42,030 nt of DNA, from IMG/VR virus record IMGVR_UViG_3300005613_000142, positions 1 through 42,030 of that record. One strand, written 5' to 3'. The notes beneath the pieces were generated by a model. It had not been told where the DNA came from. It saw nothing but the letters and a program-made list of their open reading frames with translations, and ran no database searches. Source of the stretch: a virus. Position numbers and translations under genes: made by a program. Positions 5,764-29,791 of the stretch are shown here, one piece after another. Every line of letters begins with the position of its first letter. Within the stretch, counting starts at the first letter, position 1.

Positions 5764-6033
5764 ATGGAACAGATTATCGCAGTATTACTAGGTTTTGTAG
5801 CTTCATGGCTACAAGGTGGTAAGCTTAAGAGCTTAAATTTGAGCGATAAAGCCACCTCTCGCTTGCGTTTTGTAGTTTCCTTAGTTACACCCCTGCTTGC
5901 TGGCTTTGCACTCCATTACGGCGATTTTATGCTAAATGGTGAGTTTAATTGGGCAGAGGTGTTTGCTAACTTTGGCTTGATGTTTGCAACTTCGCAAACT
6001 TATTACAATACTTATTTTAAACACAAAGAATAA
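5764..6033 (+). CDS. Small membrane protein, holin-like candidate
   Basis: 89 residues with two to three hydrophobic stretches (IIAVLLGFVASWL; FVVSLVTPLLAGFALHYG; WAEVFANFGLMFATSQ) and a charged C-terminus (FKHKE). Size and topology fit a phage holin, but the lysin is 11 kb away and another holin candidate lies directly beside it. It is preceded by TAACCCCTATCAAAATG, a form of the leader seen before many genes here. Its stop overlaps the next start by one base. Confidence 0.55.
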   Translation: MEQIIAVLLGFVASWLQGGKLKSLNLSDKATSRLRFVVSLVTPLLAGFALHYGDFMLNGEFNWAEVFANFGLMFATSQTYYNTYFKHKE

Positions 6034-8085: not shown

Positions 8086-9606
8086 ATGAGCGACGCAGGA
8101 AAATATTCCAAACTCGGACATGCGGTACTAAGTAAGGAAGCAACTGCAGGGACAGCTATATATCCTGCAACCTTCTTTGAACTTCTATCCGAGAGTATGC
8201 TCCCTAATTGGGATCATTCAGATTCATCACCTATTGCCGATCACAGATCGAAACATTTTAGACCAGTTAAGAATAAGGTTGGGCCATTTGTTGGCAATAT
8301 AGTTGTTAATGTTGAGCCTAAGACTTTCGGACATTGGTTAACAGGTCTATTAGGCGAGGCAACAGATTATACACTTGAGGCGGATGCAAGTTATGACCAT
8401 TATTTCACACCACTTACAACACTCGAAACATATACGATTGATATTAGTCCTGCTGATGAGGATTATGTTGAGAGATATTTCGGTGTTCGTGTAGCAGGTG
8501 TTGATTTCTCTATTAACGAGAACAAATTACAAGCGAATATCTCATTATCAGCACAAAGGATATTTCAGAATGCTCGTGTAACTACAGAGGCTTCAAGTGG
8601 TACTACTTTAGCAGTTGATCAAACAAGTGGTATTACTACATCGGACACAATTATTGTTTTAAATGCTTCTACAGGGGCTTCGATTGCCGAATACACCGTT
8701 ACTTCGGTTGATTCGGAAACACAGCTTACAATCTCTGAAATTAGCGATACGCTTGCTGTGGATTCGATTGTTGTGATTAAGAAACAAACACCTTCTTATT
8801 CGCTAGGTTCAGAGATGATATTTAGTGGAGGTGCTTCTGTTGAATTGGCGAATGGTACTAATGGAATTCATAATCCAACAGCAATTACTAATGTTGAGGA
8901 CTTTAAAATATCTATCAAGAACGATTTAGAGCCTAAATGGGCTGCAACAGGTGCGGATGTAGTTGACCGTATGCCTTCTAATATCCTTGTAAAAGGGATA
9001 GAGGTTACAGGTACTATGTCGAACTTCCATGTTGACCCTAAGTATCTTGATATGCTTCGGGAAATGGAGCAGGTATGTTTACGATTTAAATTCGAGAATT
9101 CGGATGATTTGAATTCAAGCACAGCAGAAGCGGCAAGTGCAACTGTTGAAACTGATGGTAGTGATACGCTTACTGTTGCTTATGATACTGCGGGGGATGC
9201 CGGGAATGATTTATGTATTGATATAGTACAAGGCACAACTACATTATCAGCAGCAGTTTCAGGGCAGGTTATTACTGTTACATTATCAGCAACACCAGCA
9301 CAGAATACAACTACGCTTGTTGCGGCTGCTATTGATGGGCTTACTGATATTAGTTGTAGCGATGAAGGTACTGATCTTGTAACAACGACTGATAATGCGG
9401 ATAGGATTAGGCTTGCAACTGGTCGTGATGCTGCAGAGCCTTCTATGCTACAGATTGATTTACCGTATACTGTCTTTGACCCTTTCAATGCGAATATGGG
9501 TGAGGATGATATTGTAATGGAAGAGATTAACTTCACTGCTTATCGTGATAATAATGATGAGCATGATGTATTTGTAAGATTAAGAAATTCGACTAGCGAT
9601 TACTAG
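8086..9606 (+). CDS. Major tail tube protein with inserted beta domains
   Basis: 506 residues. The N-terminus (KLGHAVLSKEATAGTAIYPATFFELLSES) and the recurring NIVVNVEPKTFGHWLTGLLG, VAGVDFSINENKLQANISL and GIEVTGTMS elements fit siphophage tail tube proteins of the TTP family, usually about 250-330 residues. Extra length comes from two Thr/Ser-rich beta regions at about residues 160-225 and 343-440, probably surface decoration domains. It lies immediately before the tail chaperone pair and tape measure, the standard order. Confidence 0.75.
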   Translation: MSDAGKYSKLGHAVLSKEATAGTAIYPATFFELLSESMLPNWDHSDSSPIADHRSKHFRPVKNKVGPFVGNIVVNVEPKTFGHWLTGLLGEATDYTLEADASYDHYFTPLTTLETYTIDISPADEDYVERYFGVRVAGVDFSINENKLQANISLSAQRIFQNARVTTEASSGTTLAVDQTSGITTSDTIIVLNASTGASIAEYTVTSVDSETQLTISEISDTLAVDSIVVIKKQTPSYSLGSEMIFSGGASVELANGTNGIHNPTAITNVEDFKISIKNDLEPKWAATGADVVDRMPSNILVKGIEVTGTMSNFHVDPKYLDMLREMEQVCLRFKFENSDDLNSSTAEAASATVETDGSDTLTVAYDTAGDAGNDLCIDIVQGTTTLSAAVSGQVITVTLSATPAQNTTTLVAAAIDGLTDISCSDEGTDLVTTTDNADRIRLATGRDAAEPSMLQIDLPYTVFDPFNANMGEDDIVMEEINFTAYRDNNDEHDVFVRLRNSTSDY

Positions 9607-26647: not shown

Positions 26648-27066
26648 AAGCGGGATCTTCTCAAACTATAGAAAAGAATGTAACCTTTGCGCCCTATGAG
26701 GATAAAGAGGGCGCAAAAGGTACATACTGCTATAAAAAGAATGTAGATGAAGATCAGAATCAGTATGTACGATATGCCTCTATGATTAGCGGAAACGATA
26801 TAGACTTCCTGGCTACACTAGACGCTGAGAATGGGCTTTTTTCACCCGATAGACAAAGCGAAGTATTCATAGACGGATGGAGAGAACAGAGCTACGGTTT
26901 CTGCCAGATAAACGCAATCTTCCACCCTGAAATAGTCAACGATGAACGATTCTTTACAGACCCTTATTGGCAACTAGACAAATGTTGGGAGATGTACGAA
27001 GGAGGCACAACTTTCTACGGATATAATAACAGGTGGAAAACTATAGATAATTTTATTTGCCCCTAA
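26638..27066 (+). CDS. Lytic transglycosylase-like domain, probably expressed by -1 frameshift from the preceding gene
   Basis: LATLDAENGLF carries the candidate catalytic Glu, and EQSYGFCQIN resembles the S-x-G-x-x-Q-I signature of SLT-type transglycosylases; FFTDPYWQLDKCWEMYEGG follows. An ATG at 26782 would make a 94-residue protein lacking the roughly 48 conserved-looking residues before it. The frame is open back to a TGA at 26635-26637 but has no ATG, GTG or TTG before 26782. The overlap with the upstream frame contains TTTT (26638-26641), where Phe tRNA can slip -1 onto identical bases. Alternatives: start at 26782, or a true indel. Confidence 0.55.
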   Translation, partial: FSVEAGSSQTIEKNVTFAPYEDKEGAKGTYCYKKNVDEDQNQYVRYASMISGNDIDFLATLDAENGLFSPDRQSEVFIDGWREQSYGFCQINAIFHPEIVNDERFFTDPYWQLDKCWEMYEGGTTFYGYNNRWKTIDNFICP

Positions 27067-27492: not shown

Positions 27493-27552
27493 ATGTCAAT
27501 AATGCTATGCCCCAAAAATAAGCTTGACCAATCCCAAGGGATTAGATTATAA
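27493..27552 (+). CDS. Possible 19-residue peptide
   Basis: MSIMLCPKNKLDQSQGIRL follows the third exact copy of TAACCCCTAAAACTATG (27479-27495) and stops at TAA inside the -10 region of the downstream promoter. It could be a leader peptide or a relic. Support is only the leader copy. Confidence 0.35.
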   Translation: MSIMLCPKNKLDQSQGIRL

Positions 27553-27553
27553 T
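27524..27553 (+). promoter_or_regulatory. Sigma70-like promoter upstream of the replication genes
   Basis: TTGACC (27524-27529), 18 bases, TATAAT (27548-27553). It is the best -35 match in the window. The transcript would start near 27560, entering directly the inverted-segment region and then the initiator and helicase genes. Confidence 0.7.
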
Positions 27554-27557
27554 GTAA

Positions 27558-27677
27558 ATGAAATTAACTGTCGGCACAAACTATGAACGCATATTTTTTT
27601 ATTATCAACGACCCCGCCAGCAGGCATCAGTGCCGACAATCTCTTATGCGTTCAACTGCTGGTGGGGTTCTTGTTAA
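27558..27677 (+). CDS. Possible 39-residue peptide over the inverted-segment region
   Basis: An ATG-started frame (MKLTVGTNYERIFFYYQRPR, then QQASVPTISYAFNCWWGSC) spans the whole inverted-segment element and ends at TAA 27675-27677. The start is only a few bases from the predicted transcript start. It may be translated, or open by chance. The many inverted segments in it argue for an RNA role. Confidence 0.3.
   Translation: MKLTVGTNYERIFFYYQRPRQQASVPTISYAFNCWWGSC
27569..27668 (+). ncRNA. Structured RNA or DNA element with three collinear inverted segments
   Basis: Segment A TGTCGGCAC (27569-27577) is complementary to 27630-27638. Segment B TGAACGCATA (27584-27593) is complementary to 27645-27654. 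Segment C (27611-27623, ACCCCGCCAGCAG) pairs with 27656-27668 (13 bp, one G-U). The order is A-B-C-A'-B'-C', so the three stems cross rather than nest. The C stem is followed by TTCTTGTT, making it terminator-like; B contains a small hairpin (TATG-AACG-CATA) followed by seven T. It lies between a strong promoter and the replication genes. Confidence 0.6.
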
Positions 27678-27691
27678 TAACCTCAAATAAT

Positions 27692-27853
27692 ATGGAAGAC
27701 GATGTAAAAGCCTTTGCAGTTTGGCTCACCGCAAGGAAATATCTGCAAAAACTTGATAAAAATGCTTATTCTGATCTTAGATTATCTTTATTAGATGCGC
27801 ACTTTATAACCAGAATGTCTGAACACTTTTCACTTAAAAACAAAAATGGATAG
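27692..27853 (+). CDS. Hypothetical small protein (53 aa)
   Basis: 53 residues from the ATG at 27692 (MEDDVKAFAVWLTARKYLQK); an upstream GTG would lie in the structured element. Helical, with DLRLSLLDAHFITRMSEHF. It overlaps the initiator gene by eight bases, so it may act in replication or its control. Confidence 0.55.
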   Translation: MEDDVKAFAVWLTARKYLQKLDKNAYSDLRLSLLDAHFITRMSEHFSLKNKNG

Positions 27854-28532
27854 TCCACAACTAGAAAACGGACACTTTAGGATCGCCAACGAAATAGCGG
27901 AGGCGTTAGCACAAATCAATTTATCGAGTTACCAATCTAGGTTACTTTGGGCGGTGCTAAGAAAAACATACGGATTTAATAAAAAAGATGATTGGATTTC
28001 TAATAGCCAATTAGTAGAATCAACAGGTTTAAGAAAGCAACATATTAGTCGGGCAAAAAGAGAATTGTTTGACCGCAACATATTAGTAACCAATAGGGGT
28101 AACAAAATAGCTTTTAACAAGTTACACAAGTCATGGAAAGAGTTACCGAAAGGGGTTACTAGCCATAAAGTAACCAATAGGGGTTCTGGAGTAACCAATA
28201 GGGGTTCTGGAGTAACCAATAGGGGGGAACACAAAAGACAATATACAAAAGACAATATACAAAAGACAGGGGGGCGCGAGGTGATTCCGCCATCGCTGGA
28301 CGAAGTAGTTGCGTATTGCGAAGAACGCAATAACGGCATAGATGCTGAGGAATTTATGGCGCATTATGAGGCGAACGGGTGGATGCGAGGCAAGTCCAAG
28401 ATTAAAAGCTGGAAGGCGTGTGTTATTACATGGGAAAAGAAGCGGGAGAATAAAGACCCTCGAGCTAGAAAACCGAATGAGTCATGGTCGGATTGGCAAT
28501 TGCGACTTGCAAAAACAGATAACCAAAAATAA
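27846..28532 (+). CDS. Phage replication initiator, lambda O-like
   Basis: 228 residues. The N-terminal winged-helix domain (ENGHFRIANEIAEALAQINL, SSYQSRLLWAVLRKTYGFNK, QHISRAKRELFDRNILV) matches phage replication protein O N-terminal domains, which bind origin iterons. A central linker repeats VTNRGSG, encoded by the iterons themselves. The C-terminal part (EEFMAHYEANGWMRGKSKIKSWKACVITWEKK) resembles the helicase-recruiting tail of such initiators. It is followed at once by a DnaB-family helicase gene. Confidence 0.85.
   Translation: MDSPQLENGHFRIANEIAEALAQINLSSYQSRLLWAVLRKTYGFNKKDDWISNSQLVESTGLRKQHISRAKRELFDRNILVTNRGNKIAFNKLHKSWKELPKGVTSHKVTNRGSGVTNRGSGVTNRGEHKRQYTKDNIQKTGGREVIPPSLDEVVAYCEERNNGIDAEEFMAHYEANGWMRGKSKIKSWKACVITWEKKRENKDPRARKPNESWSDWQLRLAKTDNQK
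28169..28272 (+). other. Probable replication origin: iterons plus AT-rich repeats inside the initiator gene
   Basis: AGTAACCAATAGGGG begins at 28169, 28190 and 28211, exactly 21 bp apart (two helical turns), each of the first two followed by TTCTGG. A fourth, separate copy is at 28085-28099, and AGGGGTTACT (28151-28160) is a partial inverse copy. Immediately downstream, ACAAAAGACAATAT is repeated at 28231 and 28245, with a shortened copy at 28259, a likely unwinding region. This is the lambda ori layout. Confidence 0.75.
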
Positions 28533-28534
28533 AA

Positions 28535-29791
28535 ATGAACAACTTACCGTCAGATCAGGAGGCAGAAAGATCAATTATTGGATGTATTTTTTCTGATTCG
28601 TCCATATTGAAAATGATTGATTTGGAGAAGGATGATTTTTATTTCACTAAGTATCAGATTGTTTTTATGTGTATGAAGTATCTGGAAACAAAAGGGATAG
28701 AGCCTGATTTAACAACGGTTGATGGCGAGCTTAAAAGGTCGGGCAATATGGACAAGGTTGGTGGTTCGTGGGTTTTAGCAGAAGCGCATTCTTCGGTACC
28801 AAGCCTTACGCATTTCGAGTCTTATGTGAAGTTAATTAAGAACGCATCCTATCACCGAAAAGCAATTTTGGGTATGCAGAAATTAAGTGAATATCTCAAA
28901 GGCGATTATAATTCAAGTGAGTTTGTTAAAAAGCTTGCTGATTTTACAGAGGATATTAAGCCAAAACAGGAAGGCATGCATGATGTTAATGGTTCTGAGA
29001 TAGCGAATGATATAGACATATTGCTTGAATCGAGAATGGATTTTACTTGGGGAACTCAAAATTTGGATTATAAATTTTCACCTTTAAGCCCTTCAAAATA
29101 TGTAATTCTTGCGGGTGAAACAGGTGTTGGCAAAACAACCTTTGCATTACATTTTGCAATTGAAAACGCAAAGCTCGGGCATAAGGTTTTATATTTATCT
29201 CTTGAGATGACAAACCGTGCATTGCTTATGAGATATGCAAGATCAAAGCTTAATATTTCAAAGGTTGACTGGAAGAAAAAGCAATACGACAAGGAAGAAA
29301 TTAAGGAAGCAGTTGCCTCCCTTCCTGAAAATTTGGTTTTTAAGGATATTGAAACGAGCAGTGGTCAAATTGATTTAGAGCGGATTAAGAGCATGATTAC
29401 TGATGGAAATTATGATATAGTTTTAATAGATAATTTTGGATTTATAGATTCTATTGGTAAAGATGAAAATGATAAATTCAAAAACATTTCAAGGTATATT
29501 GTTGAAATTGTTAAGAAGAAACCGATCATAATTGTTGCATTACATCATTTCCGTAAGGGCGGAGAAAAAGAAAGCCGGATTAGGAATATCAATGCTCTTA
29601 TGGGAACCGCGAAGCTTGCACACGACATAGATTTTTGTGTGCAGGTTACAAGGGATATGAACCCTGATGAAGATGCAGGGCCGGAAAACAAAGCTGAATT
29701 ATCTGTTGTTTTACAAAAAGATAGGGAGTGGGGAGAGTTCGCATTATCTAATATTTATTACAAAGATGGAGAGTTTACAGATCGATATTGA
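28535..29791 (+). CDS. Replicative DNA helicase, DnaB family
   Basis: 418 residues. The N-terminal domain opens with LPSDQEAERSIIGCIFSD, standard for DnaB. Walker A is GETGVGKT (194-201), Walker B IVLIDN (295-300), and motif ALHHFRKGGE with NALMGTAKLAHDIDFCVQV follows. It unwinds DNA 5' to 3' at the phage fork and is presumably loaded by the O-like protein at the adjacent iterons. No separate loader gene is seen. Confidence 0.9.
   Translation: MNNLPSDQEAERSIIGCIFSDSSILKMIDLEKDDFYFTKYQIVFMCMKYLETKGIEPDLTTVDGELKRSGNMDKVGGSWVLAEAHSSVPSLTHFESYVKLIKNASYHRKAILGMQKLSEYLKGDYNSSEFVKKLADFTEDIKPKQEGMHDVNGSEIANDIDILLESRMDFTWGTQNLDYKFSPLSPSKYVILAGETGVGKTTFALHFAIENAKLGHKVLYLSLEMTNRALLMRYARSKLNISKVDWKKKQYDKEEIKEAVASLPENLVFKDIETSSGQIDLERIKSMITDGNYDIVLIDNFGFIDSIGKDENDKFKNISRYIVEIVKKKPIIIVALHHFRKGGEKESRIRNINALMGTAKLAHDIDFCVQVTRDMNPDEDAGPENKAELSVVLQKDREWGEFALSNIYYKDGEFTDRY

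Follow-up and report, generated by a model that had tools for sequence, protein, structure and literature searches.

A predicted leader RNA of three crossing helices ahead of replication genes in an uncultivated phage

The replication operon and its leader

The window, i.e. the whole 42,030-nucleotide stretch of viral DNA analysed here (IMG/VR record IMGVR_UViG_3300005613_000142), carries a set of replication genes on its plus strand. They are preceded by a sigma-70-type promoter, TTGACC-18-TATAAT (27524-27553, + strand), with 11 of 12 consensus matches, the best in a 2.7-kb region. Transcription is predicted to start near 27560-27561 and to enter a leader frame of 35 codons (27583-27690, + strand), whose TAA lies 1 nt before the ATG (27692) of a 53-codon reading frame (27692-27853, + strand). 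The latter overlaps the start of the gene for phage replication protein O (RepO; 27846-28532, + strand; Phage_rep_O, Pfam PF04492, E 3.7e-27), which is followed by a gene for a DnaB-like replicative helicase (28535-29791, + strand). The 21-bp iteron-like repeats within repO (28169-28225) are interpreted as iterons of a lambda-like origin; directly after them (28231-28268) stands a 14-bp tandem repeat, ACAAAAGACAATAT. Upstream of this region (26683-26770), two adjacent hairpins, TTTGCGCCCT..AGGGCGCAAA and GTACATACTG..CAGTATGTAC, are located between the frame of a membrane-anchored protein and a lysozyme-like frame.

The leader harbours an element (27569-27680, + strand) in which three segments, A, B and C, are followed by their complementary partners in the same order (A-B-C-A'-B'-C'). 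Segment A (27569-27577, + strand, TGTCGGCAC) starts about 8 nt after the predicted transcription start and pairs perfectly, over 9 of 9 positions, with A' (27630-27638, + strand, GTGCCGACA). Segment B (27584-27593, + strand, TGAACGCATA), which overlaps the leader start codon, pairs with B' (27645-27654, + strand, TATGCGTTCA) over 10 of 10. The third helix spans 25 positions: C (27599-27623, + strand) is made of a TTATT base and the core CCCCGCCAGCAG, and C' (27656-27680, + strand) of a GC-rich core followed by TTCTTGTTA, resembling a terminator. The cores CCCCGCCAGCAG and CTGCTGGTGGGG form 12 unbroken pairs including one G.U, and the base outside them is AU-rich and weaker. The starts of A and B are 15 nt apart, as are those of A' and B', and the successive spacers (A-B, B-C, C-A', A'-B', B'-C') measure 6, 5, 6, 6 and 1 nt. 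RNAfold, run without pseudoknots, folded only C and small hairpins. Judged from the sequence, the presence of a three-helix crossed structure in this leader is nearly certain.

These features had for the most part been pointed out in an earlier note on this DNA, whose three inverted segments in collinear order, 15-base offsets and placement between a strong promoter and the replication genes were all borne out, as was the T-rich run after the C stem. The extent it had assigned to the element (27524-27690) was too generous, the first part of it (27524-27553) being the promoter. The observation itself is thus confirmed, and the interpretation offered with it is partly supported.

Excess over chance and conservation among related phages

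The crossed pairing stands well above background. Only 26 exact inverted pairs of at least 9 nt within about 120 nt occur in the 42 kb, and A and B are the only two that cross. In a stacking-energy search of the 42 kb the best collinear triple was found here, at -76.9 kcal/mol, the runner-up scoring -42.5; among crossing pairs, A x C reached -59 kcal/mol, the next best in the window -42. None of 120 dinucleotide shuffles attained the window's best crossing pair (z = -12.4), and each of the five leaders with a full element (those of the window, L010, L009, L020 and L027) surpassed every shuffle, with z from -8.2 to -12.4. When 16 replication-operon leaders were compared with 1420 background tiles from the same contigs, the best crossing pair fell in the top 0.7% for 11 of them, in a test that is less biased than the list of 18 leaders used below, which was completed partly by eye, and in which the L022 start position and the L009 region were set with knowledge of the element. 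The element was not seen in L021 and L024 in this test. Crossing pairs within coding genes of L004 scored at background level and were rejected as chance. That the pairing in the window is accidental or a by-product of the encoded peptide has a practically negligible probability, being contradicted by the shuffles, by the genome background and by the compensatory changes described below; segment A moreover falls outside the 35-codon frame.

Related phage contigs were reached via their replication proteins and then searched for crossing helices, with no sequence used as a query. An element of this kind emerged directly after a promoter and before the replication genes in related phages. Four of them (L010, L009, L020 and L027) keep the full ABCA'B'C' order with rewritten helix sequences, the helices of L009 and L010 having been defined by hand. 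Their spacers, in the order given above, are 6,5,6,6,0 (L010), 7,7,6,7,0 (L009), 6,6,8,8,1 (L020) and 4,5,6,4,0 (L027), so that the ranges amount to 4-7 nt for A-B, 5-7 for B-C, 6-8 for C-A', 4-8 for A'-B' and 0-1 for B'-C'. The full elements are 107-117 nt long. Three mutually crossing collinear helices, the ABCABC or pseudotrefoil topology, are therefore found in five leaders including the window, and in degenerate versions in L029 and L033. Eleven other leaders from ten phages (L001, L002 twice, L012, L019, L022, L025, L028, L036, L038 and L066) possess two crossing helices (A, C, A', C') and no B, often with small local hairpins added; L036 has, as its first helix, a long two-part hairpin. 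A and A' are spaced by 59-64 nt in 9 of the 18 leaders. The second crossing-helix leader of L002 (8866-8990) is located after DnaB with its own promoter. The roughly 350 nt of non-coding sequence downstream of it (8990-9340) also appear to be structured and match no Rfam family.

Covariation had been proposed as a check on the structure, and among the five full examples compensatory changes affect 21 of 26 pairs, with 129 of 130 cells paired, in an alignment that was placed by hand on the helices and hence leans towards structure. In an independent MAFFT alignment of five relatives, the ATG at the A/B junction is invariant, as are TTATT and AATAA in the C base; the helices in between vary in sequence. 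The earlier note had envisaged relatives that would retain the peptide and lose the complementarity; the opposite was found, the leader peptide sequences not being conserved and the complementarity being preserved by compensatory changes. G.U mismatches outnumber A.C ones 19 to 6 (p 0.015, with a helix extension that does not favour G.U), an indication that the pairing operates in the sense RNA rather than in DNA or in the antisense strand. This bias, together with the collinear pairing, upholds the proposal of helices crossing at the RNA level and argues against the DNA-level element that had been suggested beside it. A cruciform, recombination or origin site would agree with the nearby replication genes and the long inverted repeats, but is very improbable: besides the G.U excess, the crossing order is not that of a cruciform, the position is fixed relative to the promoter and the iteron-like repeats in repO make a likelier origin.

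BLAST of the element and its relatives against annotated phages returned no match, owing to the lack of sequence conservation in the helices. Viral contigs scanned with an exact pattern were likewise without match, two scans of bacterial and archaeal genomes with the linked proteins uncovered no relative, and the element is absent from most Rep_O phages of cultured hosts. The Rfam 15 covariance models gave 0 hits at the gathering threshold for the window and the related loci, the best sub-threshold matches being snoRNAs with E > 2 on the other strand.

Start signals, terminator-like end and competing accounts

The ATG of the 35-codon frame occupies the A/B junction, and an ATG is found at the matching structural place, 4-7 nt after A, in L010, L009, L020 and L027. 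Since it is kept in these four relatives, the 35-codon frame is a better candidate than the 39-codon frame (27558-27677) put forward in the earlier note, which is present in the sequence but starts at or upstream of the predicted transcript start (~27560). An ATG near A is missing in 6 of the 18 leaders. The stop of the leader frame is separated from the next start codon by 1 nt in the window, 3 in L020, 6 in L027 and 7 in L066. In L001 (4540-4700), an HNH endonuclease frame directly after the leader element lacks an ATG, GTG or TTG start and is in frame with the leader frame past its TGA; readthrough, an unusual start or a misassembly could account for this.

About half of the window genes, if not more, carry a TAAC(CCC) motif about 14-16 nt before the start codon in place of a Shine-Dalgarno sequence (e.g. 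the genes starting at 5764, 24017, 25104, 27078, 29873, 30288 and 31789); this motif may be a non-standard translation-initiation motif and may help to identify the host. A similar TTAAC (27564-27568, + strand) lies directly 5' of A, at -18 of the leader frame, of which it is possibly the initiation signal. A TAACC element (27678-27682, + strand) is found 14 nt before the ATG of the 53-codon frame, its TAA being paired in the base of helix C. As TTAAC adjoins A and TAACC extends into the paired base of C', both start sites would be closed by the fold.

The last helix is a GC-rich stem followed by a U-rich tract that abuts the next start codon. Over the 18 leaders, the 9-nt tails after the last G-C pair of C' contain 57% T against a background of 28% (p 2e-15), and in 12 of the 18 tails, 5 or more of the 9 nt are T. 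A simple terminator scan did not list C' because its loop limit is 8 nt, the loop of this terminator-like stem being far longer than usual. The U-rich tract is poor in L020, in both copies of L002 and in L022, hence termination cannot be universal. C' resembles an intrinsic terminator and the folded RNA may terminate transcription. The large loop that contains A' and B' belongs to a conserved architecture and not to an insertion, which speaks against the earlier idea of a split terminator carrying an insertion.

The distance from promoter to A is the same in relatives; in eight leaders A follows the predicted transcription start by 1-9 nt, and usually by 5-9. A consensus scan for antisense promoters directed at the element was negative for the window and for 15 of the 18 leaders. 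An attenuator driven by an antisense RNA was set aside for this reason, and the same result for the window and most relatives speaks against a replication-control RNA acting in trans, which the element may otherwise be. The compact fold extending from about 8 nt after the predicted transcript start to the terminator-like tract could also delimit a stable small RNA of about 110-115 nt (promoter to U-rich tract) that acts in trans or shields a 5' end from nucleases. This is quite unlikely given a downstream gene that is always close in cis, an open leader frame with a conserved ATG, and no conserved unpaired seed region.

A rather unlikely account, though one to be taken more seriously, is translational control alone, where the pseudoknot would hide or present the starts of the replication genes without any termination, perhaps as an RNA operator of a phage replication protein, comparable to that of T4 gp32 on its own mRNA. 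In most leaders only about 5-25 nt separate the end of C' from the next start codon, the TAACC element of the window is within the base of helix C, and an extra copy of A occurs near the start codon in L012 and in the first copy of L002. The strong enrichment of U-rich tracts after C' is at odds with it, and the lack of conservation of the helix sequences makes a sequence-reading protein unlikely. The further copies of A are situated just before or over the start codon (L012:4299-4407 and L002:6036-6160), and L030 (2448-2500) has two copies of the A equivalent; in these three phages the loop segment A' could possibly pair with either copy, as in an alternative-pairing switch.

A possible switch and its relation to known systems

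The reading that we prefer, to which a probability of about 45% may be given, is that the leader RNA acts in cis as a gate to the replication operon, made up of the 53-codon frame, RepO and DnaB. The RNA-level pairing, the conserved geometry, the leader ATG and the U-rich tract are established by sequence comparison; the way in which such a gate would sense ribosomes, terminate and couple translation is what we infer from them. A ribosome that initiates on the leader frame would cover both A and B. Were it to load before transcription has reached A' and B', some 60 nt further on, the A-A' and B-B' pairings would be blocked; C would then be a long-loop hairpin that translation keeps open, transcription would read on, and the ribosome coming from the leader frame could restart at the adjacent frame. 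If no ribosome were loaded, A-A' and then B-B' would pair as the RNA emerges and bring C beside C' (spacer of 0-1 nt); helix C would close, both start sites would be hidden and termination in the U-rich tract would be favoured. The collinear order fits such a switch because each partner is made a constant distance of about 60 nt later and the lock would close along transcription. The same anatomy is predicted by autoregulation through a replication protein, by a role in RNA stability and by a stable small RNA.

Leaders of replication genes that serve the same regulatory need, with other topologies and with an antisense RNA, are known from several plasmids. In those of the IncI-alpha, IncB and IncL/M groups (ColIb-P9 repZ, IncL/M repA; references cited in PMC10724649), a leader peptide, translational coupling and a pseudoknot switch are involved. 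The present element likewise belongs to the leader of a replication initiator with a short frame whose stop adjoins the next start (in the window, and similarly in L020, L027 and L066), and it contains a pseudoknot in the rep mRNA leader, here predicted from pairing and covariation. The pseudoknot of these plasmids is short, activates translation and is under antisense RNA control. The element differs from it in that helices of 8-10 bp cross in ABCA'B'C' order and cover a terminator-like stem as well as the leader start; moreover, the scan revealed no antisense promoter, and sequence similarity was not seen. In the rep attenuators of pT181 and pIP501, a terminator-like stem directly 5' of the initiator start is set by alternative leader pairing; termination is triggered by an antisense RNA, and one arm of the terminator can pair with a pre-emptor (PMC5703833). 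In 12 of 18 leaders the C' core and T-rich tail provide a comparable stem just upstream of the rep start, whereas no pre-emptor is present: A and B are complementary to segments of the terminator loop, A' and B', and not to C, and their pairing can coexist with the terminator stem.

Among phages, the pseudoknot of the T4 gene 32 mRNA is described as possibly the sole viral example in translational autoregulation (PMC3014915). It is formed by a pair of small coaxial stems to which gp32 binds, and lies 67 nt before the start. It has in common with the element its location in a phage mRNA leader near a DNA replication gene, the element differing by three long crossed helices next to the start codon and to a leader frame. 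Pseudoknots of the ABCABC type ('pseudotrefoil', genus 1), whose topology the element shares, are reported to be rare, with 51 sequences against 1688 for the simple H-type (PMC3390330). No account of an ABCABC pseudoknot in a phage leader was found in the literature consulted.

The HK022 put and EAR elements are promoter-proximal structured RNAs ahead of an operon. The element resembles them by its closeness to the promoter before an operon, and differs by its fold, its terminator-like end and the lack of any shared sequence. A processive antitermination RNA of this kind, which once folded would make the polymerase ignore later terminators, is improbable here. The element is always within 5-30 nt of a promoter, and L002 carries it twice, in front of the replication genes and again between DnaB and the packaging genes, as such a function would allow. 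Known processive antitermination RNAs, put and EAR among them, depend however on conserved sequence positions, where only spacing and pairing are kept here, and the element itself closes with a terminator-like stem.

As no tested family fits, the element is classed as a new structural form of replication-gene leader switch. A broader claim can be put forward more tentatively, namely that of a new class of regulatory leader RNA, a three-helix pseudotrefoil where the same helices would preorganise an intrinsic terminator and make up the initiation region of the leader frame. Ribosome loading would then be sensed directly and the replication genes tied to the translational state of the host, in an RNA conserved by geometry alone while its helix sequences are freely rewritten. 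If the cis-acting gate works as proposed, it would be a compact, protein-free sensor of ribosome loading that links phage DNA replication to the growth state of the host, and it would add a structural class to the replication-gene leader switches known from plasmids. Complex pseudoknots with this topology are rare and usually limited to one RNA family; here one is conserved among unrelated-looking sequences that head the replication operons of uncultivated phages, and provides a natural covarying set for asking how collinear helices fold during transcription.

Two other structured stretches were observed next to repO genes of the related phages. Between the leader element and RepO of L009 (960-1130), a tRNA-like stretch is closed by AATCTA.GATTGAGAG / CTCTCAATC.TAGATT, in which ARAGORN called no tRNA. 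Before RepO of L032 (2421-2500), a hairpin loop, CCTATCC, can pair with a GGATAGG that overlaps a Shine-Dalgarno-like AGGAG, and this leader pseudoknot is enclosed by a TTGCCGGC/GCCGGCAA helix, a design that differs from that of the crossed element.
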